DNA of 64,000 nt from Hydrogenophilus thiooxidans (GTDB lineage Bacteria > Pseudomonadota > Gammaproteobacteria > Burkholderiales > Rhodocyclaceae), in assembly GCF_019049855.1 (NCBI RefSeq), contig NZ_JAHLSY010000005.1, positions 1 through 64,000 of the forward strand. Reading direction: 5' to 3'. The notes below the pieces were generated by a model. It did no database searches. It saw only the letters and a list, made by a program, of their open reading frames with translations, and had not been told where the DNA came from. Position numbers and translations under genes: made by a program. Positions within the stretch are counted from its first letter, which is position 1; each line of letters starts with the position of its first letter. Shown here piece after piece: positions 1,235-64,000 of the stretch.

Positions 1235-1861
1235 ATGGAATTGAAACTACTCGATACGAATGGTCAAGAGGCTGGTGCTGTGACCGTCTCGGACCAGCTT
1301 TTTGGTCGCGAATTCAACGAGCCGCTCGTCCATCAGGTCGTGGTGGCCTATATGGCCAACGCGCGTCGGGGTACGCGGGCGCAAAAAGACCGTTCGCAAG
1401 TGAAACACTCCACCCGCAAACCCTGGCGGCAAAAGGGTACCGGGCGAGCGCGCGCCGGGATGACCTCGAGCCCGTTGTGGCGTGGGGGTGGGAAGATTTT
1501 CCCAAGTACGCCGGACGAAAATTTTTCTCATAAAGTCAACCGGAAGATGTACCGCGCGGCGATGGCGTCGATCTTGTCGGAACTGGCGCGTCAAGGGCGG
1601 CTTGCGGTTGTCGACGGTTTCGACGTCTCAGCGCCGAAGACCAAATTGGTCGTCGAAAAGCTCAAGGCGATGGGGGTCTATGATCGCAACGTGCTCCTTG
1701 TTACGGACGTGCTCAGCGAAAACCTGCTGTTGGGCAGTCGCAATTTGAAGAATGTGTTGGCGCTGGAAGCGCACGAGGTCGATCCGGTTGCGCTCGTTCA
1801 TTTCGACTTGGTGTTGGTGACCAAGGGCGCCATCGAAAAATTCCAGGAGATGTGGCAATGA
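1235..1861 (+). CDS. rplD: 50S ribosomal protein L4
   Basis: L4 lines the polypeptide exit tunnel. In gammaproteobacteria it also represses the S10 operon; whether it does so here is unknown. The 208-residue product has the conserved central loop around [17 protein letters not shown] and [12 protein letters not shown]. Its stop overlaps the rplW start (ATGA), so the two are probably translationally coupled. Confidence 0.98.
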
Positions 1862-2166
1862 GTGCGCTCAAGGAACGCCATTATCAGGTGCTGCTGGCAC
1901 CGGTGATTTCCGAAAAATCGACGATGCTGGCCGAGACGCGCAATACCGTCGTCTTTCGGGTGGCGCCGGATGCCGAAAAACATGAAATCAAAGCGGCGGT
2001 GGAAGGTCTCTTCAACGTTCGCGTGCAAGGGGTGCGCGTCGTCAATGTGAAAGGCAAGGTGAAGCGTTTCGGCCGTTTTGCCGGTCGCCGCGCCAACGTT
2101 CGTAAGGCTTACGTGACGCTCGAGCCCGGCCAAGAGCTCGATTTCGTCATGGGTGGGAGTGCGTAA
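1858..2166 (+). CDS. rplW: 50S ribosomal protein L23
   Basis: L23 sits at the tunnel exit and docks trigger factor and SRP. The product from ATG is 102 residues ([20 protein letters not shown]...). An in-frame GTG six bases upstream could add two residues, but the ATG overlaps the rplD stop as ATGA and fits the family. The conserved VISEKST segment is near the N terminus. Confidence 0.96.
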
Positions 2167-2168
2167 TC

Positions 2169-2996
2169 ATGCCGATCGTCAAACTGAAACCAACCTCTCC
2201 GGGTCGGCGCCACGTCGTCAAAGTCGTTCATCCGCATCTGCACAAAGGTGAACCGTACGCGCCGCTCGTCGAAGCGCAAATCCGCAAAGCGGGCCGTAAC
2301 CATGTTGGGCGAATCACCACCCGACACAAAGGGGGTGGGCACAAACACCATTACCGAATCATCGATTTTTGCCGCAACAAAGACGGCATTCCGGCCAAAG
2401 TCGAACGGATCGAATACGATCCCAACCGTACGGCGCACATTGCGCTCGTTTGCTACGCTGACGGCGAACGCCGCTACATTCTCGCCCCCAAAGGACTCGA
2501 AGCGGGAATGGTGGTCGAAAGCGGCCCGCAAGCCCCGATTCGTGTCGGAAATGCGCTCCCGTTGCGTTCGATCCCCATTGGGACTACGATCCACAACATC
2601 GAGCTTCAGCCGGGTAAAGGGGGGCAGTTGGCTCGTGCCGCGGGCGCATCTGCGATGCTGGTGGGTCGCGACGGAGGCTATGCGCAGATCCGTCTCCGTT
2701 CCGGCGAAGTGCGTCGCGTCCCGATGGAGTGTCGCGCTACGATTGGGGAGGTCTCCAATAGTGAGCACAACCTGGAGAAACTGGGGAAGGCAGGAGCTTC
2801 ACGCTGGCGCGGAATCCGTCCGACTGTCCGTGGTGTCGCGATGAACCCGATCGATCACCCGCATGGTGGTGGTGAAGGCCGTACCGGTACCGGTGGGCCT
2901 CCCGTCAGCCCGTGGGGTTGGCAGACCAAAGGGTATCGGACGCGTAAGAACAAGCGTACGGACGGCATGATTATTCAAAGCCGTCATAAACGGTAA
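2169..2996 (+). CDS. rplB: 50S ribosomal protein L2
   Basis: L2 is a core 50S protein needed for subunit joining and peptidyl transfer. The 275-residue product has the diagnostic C-terminal stretch with [18 protein letters not shown], including the histidine implicated in peptidyl transferase function. Length and S10-operon position are normal. It starts two bases after the rplW stop. Confidence 0.98.
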
Positions 2997-3006
2997 GGGG
3001 TAAGCA

Positions 3007-3282
3007 ATGGCACGTTCAGTGAAGAAAGGGCCTTTCGTCGACGCCCACCTCCTGAAAAAAGTTGAGGCGGCGCGCGCGAAAAATGACAAACGGCCGATCA
3101 AAACCTGGTCGCGTCGCTCGACGATCTTGCCAGAATTTATCGGTTTGACCTTTGCGGTGCACAACGGTCGCCAGCACGTTCCGGTTTTCGTCACCGAAGC
3201 GATGGTGGGCCATAAGTTGGGTGAATTCTCCTTCACCCGCACCTTCAAAGGCCACGCAGCCGGTAAGAAGGCGAAACGGTAA
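3007..3282 (+). CDS. rpsS: 30S ribosomal protein S19
   Basis: S19 binds S13 in the head of the 30S subunit and contacts the A-site finger. The 91-residue product starts [20 protein letters not shown] and contains [19 protein letters not shown], both hallmarks of S19. It lies between rplB and rplV as expected, with an AAGGGGTAAGC ribosome binding region. Confidence 0.98.
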
Positions 3283-3293
3283 GGAGCGAAGCG

Positions 3294-3626
3294 ATGAAAA
3301 CCACCCAAGCAGTGATTCGCGGCGTGCGCCTTTCGCCACAAAAAGGCCGCCTGGTTGCCGACGTGATTCGCGGCAAGCCCGTTGCCGAAGCGCTCAACCT
3401 ACTTGAGTTCATGCCGCAGAAAGGGGCGAAGCTCATCAAAAAAGCGTTGCTTTCCGCGATCGCCAACGCCGAGCACAACGATGGTGCCGACATCGACGCC
3501 CTCAAAGTGGTCCGCATCCACGTCGAAAAAGGGTTTGTGCTGAAGCGCTTTGCGGCGCGCGCCAAAGGGCGCGGGACTCGGATCTTGAAGCCGACGTCGC
3601 ATATCTATGTGACCGTGGGCGAGTAA
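3294..3626 (+). CDS. rplV: 50S ribosomal protein L22
   Basis: L22 has a globular part on the 50S surface and a beta-hairpin in the exit tunnel. The 110-residue product starts [20 protein letters not shown] and carries the tunnel hairpin segment [19 protein letters not shown]. Macrolide-resistance changes in other species map to that hairpin; nothing unusual is visible here. RBS is AAGGAG. Confidence 0.97.
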
Positions 3627-52000: not shown

Positions 52001-53056
52001 TCAGGCTGAAAGCATCGCGTCCGCAGGCGCGGTCGCCGGTTGGGCCTGTCCGAAGAAGCCTTCGGTGTGGATGCGTGCTTCAGGAGCGCCCAGCGCCAGC
52101 GCCACCGAACGGCAGTCGGCGACGAATTCGGGGCTTCCCGCGATGAATACCGAATAGGCTGAAAGATCGGGGAAGTGGTGGGGAAGGAGCGCCGGGATGC
52201 GACCGTGCCAGTAGCCTTCGGCGGTTTCGCGGGTGAGCGTCGCCTTGTAGGTGAAGTTGCGGTGTTTCGTCTCCCAGTAGCGCATCATCCCTTGGGCATA
52301 GCAATCGGCGCGGGTGCGGCCGGAATGGACCAACGTCACCGGTTTGCGGTAGCCGCGGCGCAGCGCCGCTTCGGTGAGCGCGAGCACCGGCGCAAGCCCT
52401 GTGCCGGCGGTCAGGCAGAGCACCGGGGTTTCTGCCGAAGGATCACCGATGAAGGTGCCGTAGGGGCCGTCGATCTTGACGATCTCGCCAACCTGAAGCC
52501 GCTCGGTGGCCCAGACGCTGGTAAGACCCCCATCGATCTTCGCGATCTGAAGGCTCAGCTCGCCGTCGGGACGCGGGGCGTTTGCGATCGAGTAGGAGCG
52601 CGCTGGGTATTCGCCCCGCAGATCGGCAAGCGTCACGTACTGCCCGGGCCAGTAGCGCATCGGCTGGCCAACCGGGCGCAGGCGCAACTCCACCACCCGG
52701 GGGGTGCGCACGATGCGGTCGACGACGACGTAACGCTGGTTTTCCCGAGGTGGAAAGAGCTTCGGTTTGGCGTCTGCGGTGCCCCATTCGATCACCAGAA
52801 CTTTCGAGAGCGGTTTCGCCATACACATGAGGCCATACCCTTCCCGGCGCTCGTCCGGCGAAAGCGCCATGTCAAGCACCATTCCCTGATCGAACTGCCC
52901 TTCCCGCACTTTGACTTTGCATTCACCGCAGGCGCCAGCGCGGCAGTTGTTGGGGAGCGCGTAGCCCGCTTTTTCGAGCGCGGTGAGGACGGTGTCGCCT
53001 GGGGCGCAAACCACCTCGCGGTTCGATGGGTAGAGACGAATGACCGTGGGTTCCAT
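52001..53056 (-). CDS. Ferredoxin-FAD-NAD(P)H reductase, partner of the diiron protein
   Basis: The 351-residue product has an N-terminal plant-type 2Fe-2S domain (Cys38, Cys43, Cys46 and Cys78; CX4CX2CX31C), a FAD domain with RSYS (153-156) and an NAD(P) domain with AGTGLAP (217-223). It should pass electrons from NAD(P)H to an oxygenase. Its order (Fe-S first) is that of reductases of soluble diiron monooxygenases and CDP-glucoseen-reductase-like proteins; PaaE in this window has the opposite order. The ATG follows AGGAGAGCCCACG. It lies 70 bases downstream of the diiron gene and is probably co-transcribed. Confidence 0.85.
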   Translation of the reverse strand: MEPTVIRLYPSNREVVCAPGDTVLTALEKAGYALPNNCRAGACGECKVKVREGQFDQGMVLDMALSPDERREGYGLMCMAKPLSKVLVIEWGTADAKPKLFPPRENQRYVVVDRIVRTPRVVELRLRPVGQPMRYWPGQYVTLADLRGEYPARSYSIANAPRPDGELSLQIAKIDGGLTSVWATERLQVGEIVKIDGPYGTFIGDPSAETPVLCLTAGTGLAPVLALTEAALRRGYRKPVTLVHSGRTRADCYAQGMMRYWETKHRNFTYKATLTRETAEGYWHGRIPALLPHHFPDLSAYSVFIAGSPEFVADCRSVALALGAPEARIHTEGFFGQAQPATAPADAMLSA

Positions 53057-53126
53057 CGTGGGCTCTCCTGGGGCAACGGGCGCCATAAGGCGCCCGTGCA
53101 CAATCGGTTGGTGGTTCTCGAGCAGC

Positions 53127-54152
53127 TCAGAAGACCGGAATGATCGACGCCATATCGACTTCGCTCACCTCTTCACCCGAGATGCCGACTTCGGGGATCG
53201 CGGGGAAGGGGATCCCATAGCGGTCGAGCACCCCTTTGAGATTGAGGATTGCGTTGCGCCAGTTCTCTTTCTTCGCCTCGTAGGTGGGGATGCCGAAACC
53301 GGCTTGGCGCGCGACCTCCTCGGCTTCGCGCTGGTTGGGGATGAAGTCTTCGGGCAGATCCCAGAACTCCATCGGCGGTTCGAAGAGCACTGCCGAAAGG
53401 AACAGGTACCCGGCGCGGATCTGCTTGGTGACGAGCGCTTTGTCCTCGATGGGGAGTTTCGGGTAGTCGCGCTCCATCAGCGCCATGCAGATCGCCATGT
53501 GGCGCCCTTCGTCGCGGCCAATGTTGCGGAACGCCTCTTTGAAGACCAGTTCGCGGCTGTTGTCGTGCATCTGCTTGAAGATGGTCGCCGCGGCGATTTC
53601 GCCCATCAGGAACGAAGAGAAGAGCACCGCAAGCGAATACTTCGGTACTGCGTTCTTGTACCCGTTCCAGTAGCGACCCCCGTTGTAGTAGAGCCACTTC
53701 GCGTTTTTCTGCAGCCGCTTCCCCAGTTCCGTCTTCGGTTGATAGGTGAGCGGGTCGTGGTGATCGAGGAACTTCTTGATCGCCAACCCGCACATCTGTT
53801 CGTGGTTCTGTTCGTCCCGGGTGATCGAGAAGAAGCAGCGACGGACGGGGTCTTCCTCATGCTCTTCGTAGGTCTTGATGAGCGCCGACGCAAAGACGGG
53901 GGGTGCCGACGCGTCGAAGACCGAAAGGAGCGTCCACCAGTACCCGATCGCTTCCCGTTCTTCCCAACTGTAGGAATCGACGTCGAGGGTATCCCACGGC
54001 AATTTTTTCGGATCCCAGTTTTCGCGCTGCGCGGCGTCCCAGATCTCTTCGAGCTTCATCGTCTGAGCGTGCCACGAGAGCGGATAGACGTTGGGTTGCG
54101 GGGTTTCCGGCGGAAACTCCATGGTCAATGCCAGTTTTTCGTTGTGTGCCAT
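53127..54152 (-). CDS. Ferritin-like diiron protein, putative oxygenase or oxidase
   Basis: The 341-residue soluble protein has the two ExxH motifs of a ferritin-like diiron site: Glu114-His117 (DEQNHE) and Glu215-His218 (DEGRHM). Glu185 (MGEIAAA) and an upstream acid, perhaps Asp80, would complete the ligand set D/E, ExxH, E, ExxH. The spacing resembles ribonucleotide reductase R2 and soluble diiron oxygenases, but overall it is neither a BoxB, PaaA nor R2 protein I recognise. The N-terminal third is rich in Trp and Tyr. A strong AAGGAGG precedes the ATG. The next gene encodes a suitable reductase. Substrate unknown. Confidence 0.7.
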   Translation of the reverse strand: MAHNEKLALTMEFPPETPQPNVYPLSWHAQTMKLEEIWDAAQRENWDPKKLPWDTLDVDSYSWEEREAIGYWWTLLSVFDASAPPVFASALIKTYEEHEEDPVRRCFFSITRDEQNHEQMCGLAIKKFLDHHDPLTYQPKTELGKRLQKNAKWLYYNGGRYWNGYKNAVPKYSLAVLFSSFLMGEIAAATIFKQMHDNSRELVFKEAFRNIGRDEGRHMAICMALMERDYPKLPIEDKALVTKQIRAGYLFLSAVLFEPPMEFWDLPEDFIPNQREAEEVARQAGFGIPTYEAKKENWRNAILNLKGVLDRYGIPFPAIPEVGISGEEVSEVDMASIIPVF

Positions 54153-54217
54153 TTGGCTTCCTCCTTATGTGTGGGTTGTGCCGGTTCAAAAATCGCAAAC
54201 TGATTTGCGTGTGTTGA

Positions 54218-54258
54218 ATTTTATGCGAATGCAACTCTTTTTTCTTTGATCTAGATCA
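54218..54258 (-). promoter_or_regulatory. FNR/Anr-type promoter of the diiron operon
   Basis: TTGAT-CTAG-ATCAA (54245-54258) is a perfect 14-base FNR consensus palindrome. On minus, TAAAAT at 54223-54218 forms a -10. With a start near 54211 the box is centred at about -41, the class II activator position. No other -35 is needed in such promoters. The mRNA leader would be about 60 bases. Confidence 0.75.
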
Positions 54259-54274
54259 AAAAACATGCAAATAA

Positions 54275-54356: not shown

Positions 54357-55067
54357 ATGGGTGCGATGGCCGTACCAGAGCAGCTACCCGGACGGGGTGG
54401 GTTCGACGAGACGAAGCAGCGTGAAGCGGCGTGGACGCCCGAAGCGATCCGCGCCGCTTTGCATCTGCCGCACACCTTCCCGGGGCCCTATGGGGACGAT
54501 GGCGCGCGGGTCGTGCGGTGGCCTGCGGCGGTGCTGGCCGTGCTGACCCCACACCCGGAACAGGGCGTTTCGGTGTTGCTCACGCGGCGCACCCCCCATC
54601 TCTACCACCATCCCGGACAGATCAGCTTTCCGGGCGGCCGAGTGGAAGCGGGGGAAACACCCGAACAGGCGGCACTGCGCGAAGCGCAAGAGGAAGTTGG
54701 GCTAGCGCCCGAACGGGTGACGATCCTAGGGGCGTTACCGGCTTACGTCACCGTCACCGGGTACCGGGTGACGCCACTGATCGCGTGGAGCCCAGCGGTG
54801 GGGCTGCTTACGCCCGATCCGTTTGAAGTGGCGGAAGTCTTTTTCACACCGCTGGACCATTTCGCAGACCCTGCTCGCTATCTGCGGCTCAGTCTCACCT
54901 ATGCGGGCCAACCGCGTTACTACTGGGCCGCTCCGTGGCGCCACTATTTCATTTGGGGCGCCACGGCGGCGATGTTGCGTCAGCTGGCGTTGCGGCTTGC
55001 CGCTTATCGCGCGGTGGAGTCGGATCCGTCGGCAGCGGCGCGCGCTTCTGGTGCCTCTTCTGGATAA
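54357..55067 (+). CDS. Nudix hydrolase, CoA pyrophosphatase type
   Basis: The 236-residue product has the Nudix box [24 protein letters not shown] split as [11 protein letters not shown], preceded by [19 protein letters not shown]. The latter is the extra motif of CoA diphosphatases such as NudL, which cut CoA and acyl-CoA to phosphopantetheines and ADP. Two in-frame ATGs nine bases apart leave the start slightly open. The 3' end overlaps the convergent hemerythrin gene by 64 bases. Confidence 0.83.
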
Positions 55068-55687
55068 GGACCGGCGCCCAAACCGATGGGCGGCGGGGCG
55101 TGCCGAACGAGTTTGTCGAAAATCGCCTGCCATTCGTCGCGGGTCGTGGTTCCCACCATCGGGTCGCTGCCCCCTTCGCGCCACCCTTCGGCGACCCATG
55201 CCCAGTCTTCGGGCGTGAAGTGCCGTTCGGCAACGGGGAGTATCTCGCGCTCTTCGGTCATCATGTGCTGACGGTAGAAGTGGGCGTAGCGCTCGAAAAC
55301 GTCGCGAAAGCGCTCGAAACCACCCGGTTCGCGGCGCGCAAAGGCGTGGAGCGCCCCTTCGAGTTCACTGATGCGCTGTTCCGCCGCAGCGTGCTCCTGT
55401 TCCAACCGGGCGATCACTGCGTCTGCTTCGTCGGTTTTTGCTTTGAGGCGGGCAAAGAGGTAGCGGTCTTCGTTGGGGTGGTGGCGCCGTTCGGGGTATT
55501 CGGTGAGGTAATAGAGCATCGCGCGCAGGAGGCGAAAGTCGGGTTCGATCCGGCCCGCGCCGATCTCGTCGAGCAGGAAATGGAGCGCGTGCAAGACGGC
55601 AGCAAGCGCCTGGTGCTCGTCTTCGATGAGCCGCCACGCGCCATGAAAGCGCTGGGGCGCGTTGGGGGGAGTGTTTTTTTCGTTCAT
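55004..55687 (-). CDS. Hemerythrin HHE-domain protein
   Basis: The 227-residue product has a hemerythrin-like cation-binding domain: [23 protein letters not shown], a coiled middle with EQEHAAAEQ, and [20 protein letters not shown]. Such proteins bind a diiron centre and sense or store O2, NO or iron. A low-complexity C-terminal tail of about 30 residues overlaps the nudix gene. AAGGA lies about seven bases before the ATG. It sits ten bases downstream of livF and may be the last gene of that operon. Confidence 0.83.
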
Positions 55688-55697
55688 CGCCACATCC

Positions 55698-56453
55698 TTA
55701 AGCTGATACCGCAGCCAGTTTTTCTTGACGTTTGCTCATCCCTAGGTAGGTTTCGATCACCTGCGGGTTGTTTGCCAACCGCTCGGCTGGCCCCGCCAAG
55801 GTCACTTCACCGGTTTCGAGCACGTAGCCGATGTCGGCCACTTGCAGCGCAGCGCGCGCATTCTGTTCGACCAGGAGGATCGATACCCCCTGTTCGCGCA
55901 GCCGCGCGATGGTGCGAAAGATTTCGCGGATGATGAGCGGCGCAAGCCCCAGCGACGGTTCGTCGAGCATGAGCAGCTTGGGTTTGCCCATGAGCGCACG
56001 CCCCACCGCGAGCATCTGCCGCTCTCCGCCGGAGAGGGTCGCGGCCATTTGCGTGCGCCGCTCCTTGAGGCGGGGAAAGAGTTGATAGACTTCGTCGAGC
56101 GTCTCGCTGATCGAGCGATCCCCTTTGCGGTAGCGTTGAAACGCCCCCAAGATGAGGTTGTCTTCCACACTCATTTCACCGAAGAGCTCGCGTTTTTCGG
56201 GAACGAGCGCCATGCCGCGCTGCACCAAGTATTCCACGTCGGGCACGGTGATCGTTTCCCCCGCAAAATGGATCGTGCCTTGGCTGGGCAGCAGCCCCAT
56301 GATCGCCGAGAGCAGGGTGGTTTTCCCGGCACCGTTGGGACCGATCACGGTGACGATCGCGCCGGCCGGAACGGCAATCGAGACCCCGTGCAGCGCTTCG
56401 ACCTTACCATAGCGCACGTGAAGGTTTTCAACCGAGAGGATGGTGTCGTTCAT
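55698..56453 (-). CDS. livF: LIV-type ABC transporter ATPase (LivF)
   Basis: This 251-residue ATPase has Walker A GPNGAGKTT, the signature LSGGERQMLAVGRAL and Walker B KLLMLDEPSLGL, with the LivF-type QGTIHFAGETI and PEKRELFGEMSVEDNL. It energises a branched-chain amino acid or aromatic-acid importer with the fused LivM-LivG, LivH and LivK encoded upstream. The start follows AGGAGTGCCTG. Confidence 0.93.
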   Translation of the reverse strand: MNDTILSVENLHVRYGKVEALHGVSIAVPAGAIVTVIGPNGAGKTTLLSAIMGLLPSQGTIHFAGETITVPDVEYLVQRGMALVPEKRELFGEMSVEDNLILGAFQRYRKGDRSISETLDEVYQLFPRLKERRTQMAATLSGGERQMLAVGRALMGKPKLLMLDEPSLGLAPLIIREIFRTIARLREQGVSILLVEQNARAALQVADIGYVLETGEVTLAGPAERLANNPQVIETYLGMSKRQEKLAAVSA

Positions 56454-56463
56454 CAGGCACTCC

Positions 56464-58317
56464 TTACTGCACGCCGCCCAAGTAGGCTTCGAGCACCCGG
56501 GGGTCTTGTTGCACTTCGTCCGGCAGCCCTTCGGCGATCTTGCGCCCGAACTCCATCACGACGACGCGGTCGGCAAGCTGCATCACGAAGTCCATGTCGT
56601 GTTCGACCAAGAGAATGCCGATCCCTTCGGCCCGAAGCGCTCGCAGCAGCTCCGCCAGCGCCGCTTTTTCTTTATGGCGCAGCCCCGCAGCCGGTTCGTC
56701 GAGAAGCAGCAACGACGGGTCGCTCATCAGCGCACGGGCGATTTCGACGATCCGCTGTTGGCCAAGCGCCAACGCGCCGGCTTCGGTGTGGAGGTACGCT
56801 CCTAAGCCGACCCGTTCGATCTGCCGCCGCGCTTCCGCGAGAATCCGCGCCTCTTCCCTCCGTTCCAGATGGAGCATCGCGGGGAGGACTCCCGCGTGGG
56901 TGCGCAGATGGGCGCCGATTGCGACGTTGTCGAGTACCGAAAGGTTGGGCAGCAGCCGAACGTGCTGGAAGGTGCGGCTCATTCCCAGCGCGGCGATTTC
57001 ACGCGACGGTTTGCCGGTGATGTCGACGCCGCGGAAGGTGATCTTTCCTTCCGTTGGGGTATCGACGCCCGAAATCTGGTTGAAGAAGGTCGATTTGCCT
57101 GCGCCGTTCGGGCCGATGAGCGCGAGGATCTCTCCCGCATGGATGGTCAGCGACATCTTGTCGTTCGCTACCAGCCCTCCGAAACGGCGGGTGACCTGGT
57201 CCGCTACCAGCAATACCTCGCCGCGTTGCGGTTTGGCTTGGCTGGGAAGCGCCTCGGCCGTTTCAGGCATCCAGCGCGGCGTCGCTTTCACGGGGGCGTA
57301 GCGCCGCAGGATCGGCCAGATGCCGTCCCGCGCTTGCTGCAGCACCACCACCATCACCAGGCCAAAAACGATGAGTTCAAAGTTGCCGCTCTGCCCCAGG
57401 AGCTGCGGCAGGATGTCCTGGAGCCACTGTTTGGTCAGCGTGATGAGCACCGCCCCAAGGAGCGCGCCCCAGAGGTAACCTGCGCCGCCGACGACCGCCA
57501 TGAAGAGGTATTCGATGCCGATGTGGAGCCCAAACGGAGTGGGGTTCACGAAGCGCTGCATGTGGGCATAGAGCCACCCCGAGAGCGCCGCAAGCAGTGC
57601 GGCAAGGAGGAACGCGGTCCGTTTGTAATGGGCGGTGTCGACCCCCATCGCTTCGGCCATCACCACCCCCCCTTTGAGGGCGCGAATCGCGCGCCCGGGG
57701 CGGGAGTCGAGCAGATTCGCGATTGCCCACATCGCAAGGAGTAGCAATGCCCAGATCAGCGGGTAGATCGCTTCGGGTTCGGTAAGCGTCCAGGGGCCGA
57801 GCGTGATTGGCGGGATTGCCCGCATTCCGGTGTGACCGCCCAGGAATTCCAAGTTACCGAAGAGGAAATAGAGGCTCAAACCCCAAGCGATCGTGCCCAG
57901 CGGCAGATAGTGCCCGGAGAGTTTCAGCGTGATCGCGCCGATCAGCAGCGCCGCGGCAGCGGTAAGGAGCAAGCCCAGGACGAGCCCCGTCCAGGGCGAA
58001 GGAGGGAGCCACGCGAACCATTCGGGGAGCTGCCCCGCGCTCACCACCGCGGTGGTGTAGGCGCTGAGCCCGACGAACGCGGCTTGACCAAAACTCGTGA
58101 GGCCCGCGACACCTGTGAGCAACACGAGCCCGAGCGCCACCATCGCGTAGAGCGCGATGTAGTTCATCAAAGTGACGTGATAGGTTCCCAGTAGGAACGG
58201 CGCGGCGGCTACGAGCACGAGGAACGCGATCAGGACCGCACGCGCGGGGATCGCCCCTTCAGGCGTGCGCAAGGGCTTCTCCGAAGGTTGTGCGGAGAGC
58301 GAGTTGGGCGCAGACAT
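56464..58317 (-). CDS. Fused LivM permease - LivG ATPase
   Basis: The 617-residue product joins a LivM-type permease (about residues 30-330, eight to ten transmembrane helices, with [11 protein letters not shown]) to a LivG-type ATPase (about 368-617, Walker [10 protein letters not shown] at 402-410, [26 protein letters not shown]). The usual separate livM and livG genes are one reading frame here with a linker of about 40 residues. Fusion forces a 1:1 ratio of the two parts. The ATG overlaps the livH stop (TGATG). Confidence 0.92.
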
Positions 58318-59348
58318 CACTCTTCCTCCACGTGGTGGGTGGTGAGCGAGCGCCAGAAGAGTACGGGAATGATCAGGGTGAAGACGATCACCTCTTTATA
58401 GGCGCTGGCCCAGAAGGAACCGAAGGCTTCGATGAGCCCAACGATGAGCGCACCGAGTGCCGCGATCGGGTAGCTCGCCAGCCCACCGATGATCGCAGCA
58501 ACGAACCCTTTGAGTCCAATGAGGAAACCGGAATCATAGTAAAGCGTGGTGATGGGGCTCACCAAAACGCCAGAGATCGCGCCGATCGCAGCGGAAAGAA
58601 GGAGCGTGAGTCGGCCCGCCAGGTTGGGGGAAATCCCCATGAGGCGCGCGCCATTGCGATTGACCGCGGTGGCGCGAAGCGCCTTGCCGTAGAGGGTCCG
58701 GCTGAAGAACCACGCAAGGAGCGCGATCAAAGCAAGCGACGCGCCGATCACCCAAAAAGCCTGGCCAGGAATCAGCAACGGACCGACCGAAAAGCGTTCG
58801 TCCCAGAGCGGTTCGGTCCGATAGCCTTCGGCGCCGAAGAGCAAAAGCCCCAAGCCGACCAACGCGAGATGGACCGCGACCGAGACGATGAGAAGCACCA
58901 GTACCGGCGCTTCGGCAATCGGCTGGTAGAAGATACGGTAGGTGATCGGTCCCATCGCGGCAATCAGCGCGATGGTGAGGAGCATTCGTGCCCATTGCGG
59001 AGCCGTCTGCCACTCGAGCGCGTAAGTAAGGAGAAGGGTGATGAGTGGCAGCGCGGCATACCAGAAGAGCGCTTCACGCCACGGAACGCTCCGTCCGCGA
59101 AAATGGGCGAACGCCTCCAGCGCAAGCGCAGCGGCGCCGCCGGCGACGAGCAGCCAGACGGTGGCCGGGGTTTTGCCCAGTTCGAGCATCGCGAGCGTCA
59201 AAGCTCCGTACGAGACGTATTCGCCTTGGGGAATGAAGATGATGCGGGTGACTGCAAAGACCAGCACCAGCGCAAGCGCCAAGAGCGCGTAGATTGCGGC
59301 ATTGACCACACCGTCTTGTGTGAGGATGAGCGCGATTGACCAGTCCAT
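58317..59348 (-). CDS. livH: LIV-type ABC transporter permease (LivH)
   Basis: The 343-residue inner-membrane permease has about nine hydrophobic helices and the LivH features [31 protein letters not shown] and the EAA-like loop [17 protein letters not shown]. It partners the LivM half of the fused protein. AAGGAG lies about ten bases before the ATG. It follows livK by about 100 bases. Confidence 0.92.
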
Positions 59349-59447
59349 CGCGGCGGTTCTCCTTGAGCGAGCGCAGACAACCACCGCGTTGCCCCGTGGG
59401 GCGACGCGGCGATTACCGATTCCATCAGCGAGCGGTCGACGCGCTCC

Positions 59448-60602
59448 TTATTTGACGAATTTCCAGGTGCCGTTTTGGATCTGGACCATCACACGCGCCC
59501 GTTGGTCGAGCCCCAGGTGGTCCTCTTTGCTCATGGTGAAGACCCCGTGCGCGCCCGCGACCTCTTTGACGTTTTCGATCGCGTCACGCAGCGCGGCGCG
59601 AAATTCCGGTGTGCCCGGCTTGGCCTTCTTGAGCGCTTCCGGCAACGCGGCCGCGAGGAGTTTCCCAGCGTCCCACGCGTGTCCACCGAAGGTCGAAACC
59701 GACCCTTTGCCGTACTTCGATTCGTAGACTTGAACGTACTCCATCGCCGAGGCTTTCACGGGGTGATTGGCAGGGAGTTGTTCCGCGACAAGCACGGGCC
59801 CGGCGGGGAGGAAGGTCCCTTCACAATCTTTGCCACAGACGCGCAGAAACTCGTTGTTCGCCACCCCGTGGGTCTGGTAGATCTTGCCGCGGTAGCCGCG
59901 CTCCTTGAGCGTTTTTTGCGGCAACGCCGCGGGGGTTCCTGAACCCGCGATCAGGATCGCGTCGGGGTTGGCTTGAACGAGCTTCAGCACCTGACCGGTC
60001 ACCGAGGTGTCGTTGCGGTTGTAGCGCTCATTCGCGACGATCTTGAGACCCCGCGCTTCCGCCACTTTGCTGAAATTTTCGTACCACCCTTCGCCGTAGG
60101 CGTCGGCAAAGCCGATGAACCCGACCGTTTTTATGCCTTGGTCGACCATATGTTCGACGATCGCGGTCGACATCTGGTAGTCGTTTTGCGGCGTTTTGAA
60201 GACCCAGTAGCGTTTGGCGTCGACCGGCTCGACGATCCGGTTGCTGGCGGCAAACGAAATCATCGGTACTTTCGCTTCCGCAGCGACGTCGATCATCGCA
60301 AGCGAGTTGGGGGTGATGGTCGAACCCATCACCAGGTCGACCTTGTCTTCGGTGATGAATTTGCGGGTGTTCTTCACCGCGGTGGTGGTGTCCGACGCGT
60401 CGTCGAGTACGATATAGGTGATTTTTTCACCCGCGATCTCTTTGGGCATCAGCTCGATGGTGTTTTTCTCCGGGATGCCGAGCGAAGCCGCGGGGCCAGT
60501 GGCCGAAACGTTCACCCCCACTTTCACTTCGGCCCAGGCAGCGCCTGCGGCGAACGCAACGCCCAATGCAACGGTCAGCGATTTGCGCAACGGTTTTTTC
60601 AT
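59448..60602 (-). CDS. Periplasmic substrate-binding protein of the LIV-type transporter
   Basis: The 384-residue product has a signal peptide cut near Ala24 (AAWA-EVKVG) and a type I periplasmic binding fold with GVNVSATGPAASLGIPEKN and DDASDTTTAVKNTRKFI. A disulfide is possible in RVCGKDCEG. Family members bind branched-chain amino acids or aromatic acids. The neighbouring phenylacetate genes favour an aromatic ligand, but this is inference. GAGGAGACGTGTC precedes the ATG. Confidence 0.87.
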   Translation of the reverse strand: MKKPLRKSLTVALGVAFAAGAAWAEVKVGVNVSATGPAASLGIPEKNTIELMPKEIAGEKITYIVLDDASDTTTAVKNTRKFITEDKVDLVMGSTITPNSLAMIDVAAEAKVPMISFAASNRIVEPVDAKRYWVFKTPQNDYQMSTAIVEHMVDQGIKTVGFIGFADAYGEGWYENFSKVAEARGLKIVANERYNRNDTSVTGQVLKLVQANPDAILIAGSGTPAALPQKTLKERGYRGKIYQTHGVANNEFLRVCGKDCEGTFLPAGPVLVAEQLPANHPVKASAMEYVQVYESKYGKGSVSTFGGHAWDAGKLLAAALPEALKKAKPGTPEFRAALRDAIENVKEVAGAHGVFTMSKEDHLGLDQRARVMVQIQNGTWKFVK

Positions 60603-60676
60603 GACACGTCTCCTCATTTCCTCCAATTTGCCCGCACTGACCCGGCGGGGGTAGGGTGGTATAAAGTTACCACATA

Positions 60677-60690
60677 TCAAACAAGTTTGA
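60677..60690. promoter_or_regulatory. Inverted repeat in the livK promoter region
   Basis: TCAAAC-AA-GTTTGA is a perfect 6-bp inverted repeat within an AT-rich stretch flanked by ATAT on both sides. It lies about 75 bases upstream of the binding-protein start and just after the thiolase stop. A TTGTCA on minus overlaps its edge. It could be an operator for the transporter operon. Confidence 0.4.
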
Positions 60691-60701
60691 CAATATCTAA
60701 T

Positions 60702-61913
60702 TCAGGCTTTTTCGAGCAACATCGCGATCCCTTGTCCGACGCCGATGCACATCGTCGCCACCGCCCAGCGGCCGTTGCGGGTGTGCAGGGCCCGAGCTGC
60801 AGTGAGTGCGAGGCGCGCGCCTGACGCACCAAGCGGGTGACCGAGCGCGATCGCGCCGCCATGGGGGTTGACGTGTTCGGCGTCGTCTGGAAGCCCTAGG
60901 AGCCGCAACACCGCAAGCGCCTGCGCCGCGAACGCTTCGTTGAGTTCGATCACGTCGATTTCGCTCACTCGTTTACCGGTACGCTCCAGGAGTTTTTGCG
61001 TCGCTGGCGCCGGGCCGATGCCCATGATCCGCGGCGGAACGCCCGCGGTCGCCATCGCGTGGATGCGGGCAAGCGGCTGCAAGCCGTACCGCTCCACCGC
61101 GGTGGCGCTGGCAATCAGGCACGCGACCGCGCCGTCATTGACGCCGGAGGCATTTCCGGCGGTCACCGTGCCGTCGGGGCGTACCACCCCTTTGAGTTTC
61201 GCCAGCGCTTCCAGTGTCGTGTCGGGGCGGGGATGTTCGTCGATCGCAACGATCTGCGTTTCGTTCTTGTTGCCGGTTGGTGCGTCGATCGGAACGATTT
61301 CGCCCGCGAAAAAGCCTGCCTGTTGCGCCGCGGCGGTTCGCTGCTGGCTGCGGTAGGCGAACGCGTCTTGGTCGGCGCGGGCGATGCCGAATTCCGCTGC
61401 GACGTTCTCGGCGGTTTCGGGCATCGAGTCGGTGCCGTAGCGCGCGGCCATCTGGGGGTTGATGAAGCGCCAGCCAATGGTGGTGTCCTCGATCTTCGCG
61501 GTGCGGGAAAAAGCGCTCGTGGCTTTCCCCATCACGAACGGGGCGCGAGTCATGCTTTCGACGCCGCCTGCGATCATGAGCTCGGCATCGCCGGCAACGA
61601 TCGCGCGGGCCGCGGTGCCGATTGCATCGAGCCCCGAGCCGCAGAGGCGGTTGATCGTGCTGCCCGGCACCTCGACCGGCAACCCGGCCAAAAGCGCAGC
61701 CATGCGGGCGACGTTGCGGTTGTCTTCACCCGCTTGGTTGGCACAACCGAAAGTGACGTCGTCAAGCGTGGCCCAATCGATTTGGGGGTGACGGGCAACG
61801 AGTGCCCGGATGACGTGCGCGGCCATGTCGTCAGGGCGCACATGTGCCAACGCGCCGCCGTAGCGCCCGAATGGGGTTCGTACGCCGTCAACAAGATAGA
61901 CAGGTTCCTTCAT
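60702..61913 (-). CDS. paaJ: 3-oxoadipyl-CoA thiolase
   Basis: This 403-residue thiolase cleaves 3-oxoadipyl-CoA to succinyl-CoA and acetyl-CoA, the last step of the phenylacetate and beta-ketoadipate pathways. It has Cys91 in NRLCGSGLDAIG, GGVESMTRAPFVMGK, NEAFAAQAL, GHPLGASGAR and the second active cysteine in MCIGVGQG. The stretch DTTIGWRFINP is typical of PaaJ/PcaF. The ATG overlaps the TetR gene stop. Confidence 0.9.
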   Translation of the reverse strand: MKEPVYLVDGVRTPFGRYGGALAHVRPDDMAAHVIRALVARHPQIDWATLDDVTFGCANQAGEDNRNVARMAALLAGLPVEVPGSTINRLCGSGLDAIGTAARAIVAGDAELMIAGGVESMTRAPFVMGKATSAFSRTAKIEDTTIGWRFINPQMAARYGTDSMPETAENVAAEFGIARADQDAFAYRSQQRTAAAQQAGFFAGEIVPIDAPTGNKNETQIVAIDEHPRPDTTLEALAKLKGVVRPDGTVTAGNASGVNDGAVACLIASATAVERYGLQPLARIHAMATAGVPPRIMGIGPAPATQKLLERTGKRVSEIDVIELNEAFAAQALAVLRLLGLPDDAEHVNPHGGAIALGHPLGASGARLALTAARALHTRNGRWAVATMCIGVGQGIAMLLEKA

Positions 61914-62665
61914 TGTGGGTCTCCAAACGGTTGCGGGACAGAATCGGACGCGCGGTTGAGCGGCGGCGCTTCCGGCAGTGTAGCCAGGGGCGCTTCCGCT
62001 GCGGGGAAAGGGGCTGTGTGCGTGGCCGCAGCGGCGAGCGGCCCATGCGGAGGCAGCGCTGCTGCCGCAGAGAGGCCGCGGAGAAAGAGCGCGGTGACGA
62101 GCGGGGCCAGATCCCGGTGGGTGAGCGGCCCGTCCGGGCGCAGCCAGGTGAAGGTCCAGTTGATCATCCCAAAAAGGGTCATGGTGAGTGCCGAAACGAT
62201 GTGCGGCGGGGTGTCACGCGGAGCGAGCGCAGCGATCACCCGTTCGAAACCGCGCACCACCTGACGCTGTTTGGCGCGGATCGTCGCCGCGAGTTCGGGC
62301 GGCAGATGTTTGACATCTTGCACGAGCACGATGTGGCGGTGCTGCGCATGGGCGTACTCGTCGAGAAACGCGGTGATGAGGAGAGCAAGCGCCGCTTCGG
62401 CCTCTTGGGGAGTGGTGAGCGGTTGCTTGGCCAATGTCTCGCGCACGATCGCGCACAGCCGTTCGACGTGGGCGTCGGCAACGTCAAAGAGAATGTGCTC
62501 TTTGTCACGGTAGTAGTGGTAGAGGAGCGCTTTGGAAACCCCACACGCTTTGGCGAGCGTCGCCATCGACGCCGCGTGAAAGCCCATGCGGGCAAAGAGC
62601 ATCGCGGCTTTTTCGAGGATCGCTTCTCGCTGCTCTTCGAAGTTGGGGCTGCGCGTGCGGGCCAT
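61910..62665 (-). CDS. TetR-family regulator, PaaR-like
   Basis: The 251-residue product has an N-terminal TetR helix-turn-helix (about 11-57, with MATLAKACGVSKALLYHYYRDKEHIL) and a C-terminal ligand domain. A final 40-residue Ala/Pro-rich tail is unusual. Its position between paaE and the thiolase suggests it senses a CoA ester such as phenylacetyl-CoA, as PaaR does in other betaproteobacteria. It overlaps the thiolase by four bases. Confidence 0.82.
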   Translation of the reverse strand: MARTRSPNFEEQREAILEKAAMLFARMGFHAASMATLAKACGVSKALLYHYYRDKEHILFDVADAHVERLCAIVRETLAKQPLTTPQEAEAALALLITAFLDEYAHAQHRHIVLVQDVKHLPPELAATIRAKQRQVVRGFERVIAALAPRDTPPHIVSALTMTLFGMINWTFTWLRPDGPLTHRDLAPLVTALFLRGLSAAAALPPHGPLAAAATHTAPFPAAEAPLATLPEAPPLNRASDSVPQPFGDPQ

Positions 62666-62687: not shown

Positions 62688-63755
62688 TTAGCGTTCGTCG
62701 AAGCTGAGCGCCACCTGCTCGGTGAGCGGGTGCGCCTGGCAGGTGAGGACGAACCCCGCTTCGAGGTCTTCGCGCTCCAGCGAGTAGTTTTTGTCCATGC
62801 GTACCCGTCCTGCTACCACCTTGGCGCGACAGGCGCAGCAGACCCCATTTTTGCACGAATAGGGGAGCGCGATGCCTGCGGCCAACGCGGCGTCGAGGAT
62901 CGGGGTGGCGCCGCCCGGATAGGGAAATTCGCGGGTGATGCCGTCCATGATCACGCGGATCGTGGCGGCTGCGGCATCGTGCGCTTCGGCGTGGGGTGGC
63001 GGCGCACTTTCGGGCGCACCGAAACGCTCATGGTGGATGCGATCCTGCGCGACCCCGTGCGCGAGGAGCGCCGCTTCGACGCCGTCGATCATCGCATTGG
63101 GGCCACAGAGATAGACGCAGTCGATCGCATCGGGCTCCGGGAAAAGGGCGGAGAGGAGCGTGCGGGTTTTGGCTTCGTCGAGCCGACCTTCGAATAGGGG
63201 AACCTCTTGCGGCTCGCGGGAAAAGAGCGGTAGGAACAGGAAACGATCGGGGTAGCGGTTTTTGAGATCCTCGATCGTTTCCAGGAACATTGCGCTAGTG
63301 CGGGTGCGGTTGCCGTAACAGAGGGTGACGCGGCTCATCGGCTCTTCCGCAAGCGCTGTCGCGACGATCGAAAGGATCGGGGTAATGCCGCTGCCAGCGG
63401 CAAACGCAACGAGGTGGCGTTGTGCGTTCGGCTGGGGGCGGAACTGGAACCGCCCTTGCGGCGGGAGCGCTTCGATCGTCATCCCGGGGGCAAGTTGCTG
63501 ATTCGCCCAGGTGGAGAAGCGGCCATTGGGGATTTTGCGGATCCCGACGATCCAGCGACCGCTGCCCGGGGTGCTCGCCAGCGAGTAGCTTCGCCGCACT
63601 TCTTCGCCGTCGAAGGTGTGGCGCAGGATCAGGTGTTGCCCGGCGGTGAAGGCAAACGCGGACCGTAGGGGTTCCGGTACGTCGAATTCGACCGCTACTG
63701 CGTCAGGAGCCAGGCGTTCGATCTGTTTGACGGTGAGGGGGACGAAGGATTCCAT
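62688..63755 (-). CDS. paaE: Phenylacetyl-CoA epoxidase reductase subunit PaaE
   Basis: PaaE passes electrons from NADPH to the PaaABC diiron epoxidase. The 355-residue product has an N-terminal FAD domain with RSYS (55-58), an NAD(P) domain with AAGSGITPILS, and a C-terminal plant-type 2Fe-2S domain (CKNGVCCACRAKV ... LTCQAHP). The start is taken at the ATG beginning MESFVPLTVKQIERL; upstream in-frame codons overlap paaD. It lies seven bases after paaD. Confidence 0.94.
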   Translation of the reverse strand: MESFVPLTVKQIERLAPDAVAVEFDVPEPLRSAFAFTAGQHLILRHTFDGEEVRRSYSLASTPGSGRWIVGIRKIPNGRFSTWANQQLAPGMTIEALPPQGRFQFRPQPNAQRHLVAFAAGSGITPILSIVATALAEEPMSRVTLCYGNRTRTSAMFLETIEDLKNRYPDRFLFLPLFSREPQEVPLFEGRLDEAKTRTLLSALFPEPDAIDCVYLCGPNAMIDGVEAALLAHGVAQDRIHHERFGAPESAPPPHAEAHDAAAATIRVIMDGITREFPYPGGATPILDAALAAGIALPYSCKNGVCCACRAKVVAGRVRMDKNYSLEREDLEAGFVLTCQAHPLTEQVALSFDER

Positions 63756-63762
63756 GGTGGGC

Positions 63763-64000
63763 TCAAATCGGTTTGAAGTATTCGAAGGGTTCGCCACAGG
63801 CGCGGCAGCGCAGGAGTGCTTTGCAGGCAGTGCTGCTGAATTCGCTCAGTGGTTCCGTGTTGCGGCTGCCGCAGCGGGGACACGGGATCGTGGGATGATA
63901 GGTGAGCGGCGCAGCCGTTGCACGCGCTGCATCTGAGGGGGTGCCACAGCAAGCCGGCGGCGCGATGCCCGCCGCTTCGAGTTTGGCGCGGCCTTCGGCG
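63763..64000 (-). CDS. paaD: Phenylacetyl-CoA epoxidase maturation subunit PaaD (3' part)
   Basis: The 78 visible residues are the C-terminal part of PaaD, with EGRAKLEAAGIAPP, a CPRCGS pair and CRACGEPFEYF that form a zinc- or Fe-S-binding four-cysteine site, plus STACKALLRC. PaaD is thought to help build the iron-sulfur or diiron centres of the epoxidase. The 5' end and presumably paaA, paaB and paaC lie beyond the right edge. Confidence 0.94.
   Translation of the reverse strand, partial: AEGRAKLEAAGIAPPACCGTPSDAARATAAPLTYHPTIPCPRCGSRNTEPLSEFSSTACKALLRCRACGEPFEYFKPI

Follow-up and report, generated by a model that had tools for sequence, protein, structure and literature searches.

The window analysed here comprises the first 64,000 nt of contig NZ_JAHLSY010000005.1 of Hydrogenophilus thiooxidans (assembly GCF_019049855.1), and the system in question is a pair of genes, here called HYD and RED, that an initial annotation had described at nt 52001–54152 without naming the strand. 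The pair is real, a 341 aa HYD followed by RED, both on the minus strand. HYD (nt 53127–54152) begins with ATG, is preceded by a Shine–Dalgarno sequence (AAGGAGG, nt 54160–54166, minus strand) and encodes a putative R2-like diiron-type hydroxylase. RED encodes a 2Fe-2S/FAD/NAD(P) reductase. Its more likely start is the ATG at nt 53056 (nt 52001–53056, minus strand, 351 aa), because this codon has a Shine–Dalgarno sequence (AGGAG, nt 53065–53069, minus strand) and fits the start seen in relatives; the alternative, a GTG at nt 53101, would give 366 aa (nt 52001–53101). As had been claimed, the Fe-S domain comes first: Fer2 (residues 24–97), FAD_binding_6 (130–217) and NAD_binding_1 (231–331) are each over the Pfam cut-off, the order of class IB-type monooxygenase reductases. 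Against the BenC equivalog model RED scored 143.7 bits (cut-off 430).

Both of the ExxH motifs reported for HYD are present (E114xxH117 and E215xxH218). In an alignment of 54 sequences (A1), D80, E114, H117, E185, E215 and H218 are invariant, and from their spacing these six residues are proposed as diiron ligands. They conform to the R2-like diiron-carboxylate pattern of six ligands (D/E, ExxH, E, ExxH) on four helices. E114, H117, E185, E215 and H218 are kept in relatives of 51–53% and 21% identity, and the position of D80 is Asp in the former and aligned with Glu in the latter. Residue 121 is Cys in all 54 sequences and lies four residues after the first ExxH histidine, the position of the radical tyrosine in R2. 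Residue 211, an invariant Ile four residues before the last ExxH glutamate, corresponds to the site of the extra histidine ligand of AurF.

The initial annotation could not place HYD with PaaA, BoxB, AurF or R2, and had proposed a profile or structure search for a family of known substrate. Profile comparison bore this out: the window HYD lies below every Pfam and NCBIfam cut-off, and none of the eight relatives scanned with bit scores shown was over any Pfam cut-off. As candidate families, R2 and AurF were rejected on these cut-offs. HYD scored 23.7 bits against Ribonuc_red_sm (cut-off 33.6; at most 25.1 in the eight relatives) and 20.9 bits against AurF (PF11583, cut-off 29.6; 20.1–26.7 in these relatives), a model matched weakly by all 54 HYD members. 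Rubrerythrin (PF02915) was narrowly missed over a short stretch (22.3 bits, cut-off 22.8, 53 residues only); the relatives with bit scores shown gave 17.5–21.9 bits, and the best of the 54 members (E 8.7e-5) may pass. COQ7 was matched weakly by five of the 54 and was set aside. PF05138 (PaaA_PaaC) gave no match to HYD at E ≤ 1 and was not among the six families listed for the 54 members, and hhalign of the HYD profile against nine PaaA sequences returned a probability of 1.5, both profiles being so shallow that a remote relation may have been missed. The BoxB model, which NCBIfam presumably contains, was absent among the HYD matches at E ≤ 1. Sequence searches of the PDB with HYD alone and with the HYD profile gave nothing credible, and phage records gave no match.

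The AlphaFold2 model of HYD (pLDDT 87.5, pTM 0.86) had six Foldseek matches at E ≤ 0.001, all of them R2 proteins. By VIA-align, the model aligned with R2lox at Z 19.3 (rmsd 3.4 over 263 residues, 10–14% identity), tied within 1 with Kitasatospora protein 60 (Z 18.9) and VlmB (Z 18.6), and the R2 proteins among the matches listed scored Z 17.0–17.8; helical bundles can reach a Z of about 13 by common arrangement alone. Structures of PaaA, PaaC and BoxB were absent among the 50 matches listed by Foldseek or VIA-align, a result still compatible with a distant relation. The predicted fold matches one common to R2lox, VlmB and R2.

The pairing of HYD and RED was surveyed, as the initial annotation had suggested, in 86 loci: the best 80 of 243 encoding stretches in genome contigs (81–90% identity), L001 and five others. 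HYD identity across these loci is 74–100%, except for L086 at 22–24%. In 85 of the 86, RED comes after HYD in the same orientation, at a gap of 11–417 nt, which is more than expected by chance; the lone exception is the AurF-like protein of L086, 22% identical. This conserved pairing, the modelled fold and the conserved residues support the earlier view of a putative two-component, diiron-type oxygenase made of one hydroxylase and one reductase gene. Locus L086 (nt 1375–3325) carries, behind a Liv-type binding protein, two tandem diiron-like proteins: one of 339 aa that is over the AurF cut-off (42.8 vs 29.6 bits), and then one of 329 aa without any Pfam match.

Neighbouring open reading frames (ORFs) in a stretch of up to 6 kb on each side were clustered, the clusters named by hand and their representatives checked against NCBIfam; cut-offs were exceeded for PaaN, PaaG, PaaH, PaaI, PaaK, PaaX and PaaY. 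At least one paa gene is present in the fetched stretch of 63 of the 86 loci, and at least three in 47. The pair lies between paaK and paaA in Marinospirillum, Nitrincola and one Pseudomonadaceae metagenome-assembled genome, and is divergent from paaABCDE in two loci (L061 and L073). Most loci from Azonexus, Dechloromonas and Zoogloea have the pair beside paaN, often with paaX, and paaA/paaC are absent from the fetched stretch. On the Vitreoscilla filiformis plasmid pVF1, whose annotation calls HYD a hypothetical protein and RED a 2Fe-2S protein, the pair is near paaZ and paaE. Linkage to paa genes is seen repeatedly, with varying gene order and in several lineages, gammaproteobacteria and a plasmid among them.

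Fifty of the 80 genomes behind the loci, chosen to favour isolates and longer contigs, were searched with PF05138. The model was over its cut-off in 33 and not in the other 17, one of which (G102) has a single sub-threshold match. Of 55 HYD genomes, 52 have PaaN (TIGR02288) over cut-off, and the 17 without PF05138 over cut-off are all among these. A family draw of 395 genomes was then scored at E ≤ 1e-30 for PaaA/PaaC and E ≤ 1e-100 for PaaN, with one row (G256, 24% identity over a fragment) removed from the HYD set before counting, reducing it from 70 to 69. HYD is found in 69 genomes (several partial), PaaA/PaaC in 101 and PaaN in 152. PaaN accompanies HYD in 67 of the 69, the other two (G116 and G290) showing HYD fragments only. 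The PaaN-positive genomes divide into 36 with both HYD and PaaA/PaaC, 31 with HYD only, 51 with PaaA/PaaC only and 34 with neither. Among genomes negative for PaaA/PaaC, HYD occurs in 31 of 65 with PaaN versus 2 of 229 without it (Fisher p 2e-21, uncorrected for phylogeny). A strong PaaN match (E ≤ 1e-250) is present in 125 genomes: PaaA/PaaC occurs in 86 (together with HYD in 36), HYD only in 29, a stand-alone PaaA-like protein in nine and none of these in one (G120), which also lacks a PaaG match at E ≤ 1e-50. With strong PaaN, HYD and PaaA/PaaC are complementary (Fisher p 0.0009, uncorrected for relatedness).

Forty-three distinct genomes carry HYD and PaaN with no PaaA/PaaC over cut-off, 31 from the family draw and 12 further ones from the loci. 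PF05138 was absent at E ≤ 0.001 from all 26 HYD-only genomes retested and was over cut-off in none of the other 17, and PaaB (PF06243) was found in none of the 43. PaaG was over cut-off in 41, the exceptions (G292 and G333) having only partial HYD hits. In four control genomes bearing PaaA/PaaC, PaaB and PaaG were both present every time. Five of the 43 are single-contig genomes (G019, G117, G128, G220 and G295), and no PaaA-family (PaaA/PaaC) protein was found genome-wide in any of them. BLAST of the regions fetched from these five showed PaaN-, PaaG-, PaaI-, PaaK- and PaaJ-type genes around HYD-RED, with a PaaX-type gene in four; the PaaH match is of lower identity in G019 (35%) and G128 (44%).

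A low-oxygen promoter had been proposed for the pair, and a candidate site is indeed present: an FNR/ANR-type palindrome (TTGATCTAGATCAA; nt 54246–54259, no strand assigned) begins 107 nt upstream of the HYD start. No exact match other than this perfect palindrome (TTGATctagATCAA) occurs in the window. Allowing one mismatch gives four matches in the window against a mean of 0.86 in shuffled sequences, a number reached by 1 of 100 shuffles. Of 90 upstream regions, 28 have a palindrome of this type with at least 9 of 10 matches, which in 25 cases starts 69–145 nt upstream of HYD; nineteen other half-site arrangements gave 0 to 10 regions and other spacers 0 to 8. Perfect sites occur in eight upstream regions, compared with none or one in the control arrangements. 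The remaining 62 of the 90 regions have no site of at least 9 matches, including most loci beside paaN and paaX. Site-bearing rows cluster on the tree (9 changes vs a mean of 24 with shuffled labels), and 21 of the 28 are among those nearest the window protein, although the tree does not resolve them into one clade. As far as such matches indicate, the putative low-oxygen operator is a feature of some lineages and not of the whole HYD family.

Six loci (L032, L037, L041, L049, L056 and L076), from Zoogloea and genomes like it, share an 8-of-10 FNR-like site about 290 nt upstream of HYD, close to where the divergent paaN starts. The intergenic region that holds the FNR-type site of the window is shared by HYD and a gene on the opposite strand (nt 54357–55067, plus strand), identified by eye as NUDIX-type, whose start is about 205 nt upstream of HYD; five other loci have a similar gene close to the pair.

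The route published for phenylacetate (PMC4498308) runs from PaaK through epoxidation by PaaABCE to PaaG and then PaaZ. Genomes with PaaK, PaaG and PaaN that lack PaaABCE need another epoxidase, and a reading of part of the genes in their clusters offers HYD-RED as the candidate. HYD-RED is very probably a two-component, NAD(P)H-dependent phenylacetyl-CoA 1,2-epoxidase able to replace PaaABCE; its substrate, regiochemistry, metal and oxygen response are those we infer, the substrate from gene context. Phenylacetyl-CoA would be supplied by PaaK. By analogy with the families concerned, electrons would pass from NAD(P)H to the FAD and then the 2Fe-2S centre of RED, and on to a carboxylate-bridged diiron centre in HYD, which would activate O2 and place one oxygen atom on the ring of phenylacetyl-CoA. 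The resulting 1,2-epoxide would be isomerised to the oxepin by PaaG, and PaaN (a PaaZ-type dehydrogenase) and a hydrolase would carry the pathway on. Neither the neighbouring genes nor the genomic distribution supports the idea of a pair unconnected with CoA chemistry; both tie it to ring epoxidation of phenylacetyl-CoA.

A broader proposal, to which we give about even chances, is that HYD represents a new family of R2lox/AurF fold outside the PaaA/BoxB lineage that needs just two polypeptides to epoxidise the ring of phenylacetyl-CoA, having displaced PaaABCE to become the sole enzyme in many bacteria and acting in others as an FNR-controlled second enzyme through which the O2-requiring phenylacetate pathway could operate at very low O2. 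In the window genome both PaaABCE and HYD-RED are present and the latter is behind an FNR/ANR site, so HYD-RED may serve there as a low-oxygen isozyme. This is the weakest step in the epoxidase reading, because the site is not clearly tied to genomes having both enzymes. As a marker of such genomes the FNR site was tried and failed, PaaA/PaaC being found in 13 of 17 genomes with the site and 20 of 33 without (Fisher p 0.35), and two Tepidiphilus genomes have a perfect site yet no PaaA/PaaC.

That result is one of several that weigh against assigning HYD-RED to phenylacetyl-CoA epoxidation. PaaA/PaaC are also present in 36 of the 69 HYD genomes of the family draw, so that HYD is often not the sole enzyme. 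Its complementarity with PaaA/PaaC is not significant over all PaaN genomes when divergent relatives are included (p 0.51), and the counts are not independent because the genomes are related. Of the 86 loci, 23 have no paa gene in the fetched stretch, and many of these 23 are among the nearest to the window protein. A Nonomuraea homologue has no RED match within its 15-kb stretch, and Variovorax relatives of about 50% identity lie with PaaN-like, AMP-ligase and CoA-transferase genes; these may act on another aryl-CoA. Lastly, two genomes of one genus (G018 and G152; loci L103 and L104) have PaaN and PaaG and none of three candidate epoxidases, the third of which is described below. They have an AMP-ligase nearby and, elsewhere, only BoxB-sized PF05138 matches of 25–29 bits.

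The third candidate comes from the 34 PaaN genomes with neither HYD nor PaaA/PaaC. PaaG is over cut-off in 11 of these, and in nine of the 11 a stand-alone PaaA-like protein, outside the E ≤ 1e-30 limit used for PaaA/PaaC, adjoins PaaG. Five of these regions were read (loci L099–L102 and L105, from G113, G355, G010, G030 and G343), and four of them have a flavodoxin-sized gene beside PaaN, one being a flavodoxin by Pfam and the others resembling it. The stand-alone protein and the flavodoxin-sized gene are possibly a third kind of phenylacetyl-CoA epoxidase. The stand-alone protein is about 260 aa long, with PF05138 scores of 78–86 bits in the three that were scanned, and several of these genomes have a second copy elsewhere.

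Among the other explanations for HYD-RED, the one that survives best is that the pair oxygenates a different CoA thioester, for example a substituted phenylacetyl-CoA, that enters the same lower pathway, phenylacetyl-CoA itself not being the main substrate. It would account for the 36 family genomes that retain PaaA/PaaC as well, and the Variovorax relatives of about 50% identity lie with MaoC, thiolase and AMP-ligase genes (one also with PaaN and a CoA-transferase) in place of the standard paa set. We nevertheless consider it improbable in view of the five single-contig genomes, where the pair is found with PaaK-, PaaG- and PaaN-type genes (and PaaX in four) and no PaaA-family protein. On two Variovorax plasmids (L090 and L091), HYD-RED relatives with identities of about 52% and 35% belong to operons that also contain MaoC/dehydratase, enoyl-CoA hydratase, thiolase, AMP-ligase and Liv transporter genes, and PaaN and a CoA-transferase in one; these pairs perhaps use another aryl-CoA substrate.

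The initial annotation had raised the alternative of an O2-removing oxidase. In this explanation HYD-RED would protect micro-oxic metabolism as an NAD(P)H oxidase that uses up O2, or would help by removing toxic epoxide, and would not be an epoxidase. The presence of an FNR/ANR-type palindrome both in the window and in its nearest relatives would fit, and PaaABCE itself can deoxygenate the epoxide, according to PMC4498308. Yet PaaN is present in 67 of the 69 HYD genomes, the pair is located in paa clusters and 62 of the 90 upstream regions lack a site of at least 9 matches, while a helper role would mean that 41 genomes have PaaN and PaaG yet lack any known enzyme to form the epoxide. A general role as a low-oxygen oxidase was abandoned in view of the paa linkage, and the distribution and neighbours of the pair point to ring epoxidation of phenylacetyl-CoA, leaving the oxidase or helper role highly improbable. 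That HYD-RED is an R2-like or AurF-like enzyme of unrelated function, merely hitch-hiking with paa genes, hardly deserves credence: the R2 and AurF models are matched weakly and the distant relative in L086 (21–22% identity) is over the AurF cut-off, but neither the window protein nor the eight relatives reach any Pfam cut-off, position 121 is an invariant Cys, and the paa linkage recurs across gene orders and lineages, gammaproteobacteria and a plasmid among them.

The surroundings of the pair in the window accord in part with the initial annotation, which had found no beta subunit, coupling protein or CoA ligase adjoining it. This is literally correct, but paaE, D, C, B, A and paaK are only about 8.5–14 kb away on the same contig, paaE alone being within the window. 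Upstream of HYD is a gene for a hemerythrin-like protein (nt 55004–55693, minus strand; named by eye); the ORF cluster with that label also contains transporter ATPases and does not establish a recurrence of the gene near other pairs. It is followed by branched-chain-type ABC transporter genes (nt 55698–60680, minus strand; by eye), similar to genes flanking the pairs of many relatives. The paa island starts with a 3-oxoadipyl-CoA thiolase of the pcaF/paaJ type (nt 60702–61913, minus strand; TIGR02430, 689 bits vs cut-off 597), then a TetR-type regulator (nt 61910–62665, minus strand; by eye, with no NCBIfam match at E ≤ 1e-20), probably PaaR-like from its position, and PaaE, the classical epoxidase reductase (nt 62688–63797, minus strand; BLAST to the paa proteins of relatives). 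Beyond the window on the same contig, BLAST against the relatives' paa proteins, with a separate search for PaaB, places paaD, C, B, A, K, I, H, G, N and Y after paaE.

No report of a HYD-RED enzyme was found in the open literature searched, preprints and most subscription papers being outside that scope. A 2026 pathway survey (PMC13186573) puts forward PaaA and PaaC as robust markers by which to recognise the phenylacetate pathway in genomes. Its final filter required PaaABCDE nearby, it names paralogous contexts without core epoxidase subunits, and its text nowhere uses the words diiron, hydroxylase or alternative. A 2022 gap-filling paper (PMC9007349) reports an alternative oxepin-CoA hydrolase, and the passages found in it contain no alternative epoxidase. 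Classical epoxidase subunits are reported among those changed in microoxia in Bradyrhizobium (PMC6515984), and a studied Variovorax strain has paaABCDE (PMC9115942). If the proposed function is correct, the PaaA/PaaC marker misses the 43 genomes found here, and HYD-RED is a compact two-gene stand-in for a four-part epoxidase that many of these bacteria lack. Bacteria would then have solved the ring-epoxidation step in unrelated ways, and the much greater simplicity of one of these compared with the four-part complex could aid the study and engineering of aromatic ring epoxidation. The pair may also show how bacteria operate an oxygenase pathway when oxygen is scarce.

Compared with known systems, HYD-RED resembles PaaABCE in its proposed reaction, in a putative diiron centre on ferritin-like helices, in an NAD(P)H reductase with 2Fe-2S and flavin domains, and in its position in paa clusters. 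It differs in that HYD has no detectable sequence relation to PaaA (hhalign probability 1.5 from shallow profiles) and is a single hydroxylase polypeptide, PaaA, PaaB and PaaC not being needed in the 43 genomes; the 2Fe-2S domain is last in the PaaE of the window and first in RED. BoxAB, the benzoyl-CoA epoxidase, is alike in pairing a single catalytic subunit with a reductase to act on an aryl-CoA, but BoxA has two 4Fe-4S clusters (both points from PMC4498308) whereas RED has 2Fe-2S, FAD and NAD(P) domains. R2lox gives the highest structural match to the HYD model (Z 19.3, tied within 1 with the VlmB group), but by spacing HYD has Asp at the first ligand position, and identity is 10–14%. R2lox has a Tyr-Val crosslink and a Mn/Fe cofactor, and is not known to have a partner reductase or a CoA substrate. 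The AurF/VlmB N-oxygenases share the predicted fold of HYD (VlmB Z 18.6, Kitasatospora protein 60 Z 18.9), yet HYD is below the AurF cut-off and has Ile at position 211 instead of the extra histidine ligand of AurF. As for RED, its domain order is the same as that of BenC, MmoC and the toluene-4-monooxygenase reductase, although it scores far below each equivalog cut-off.

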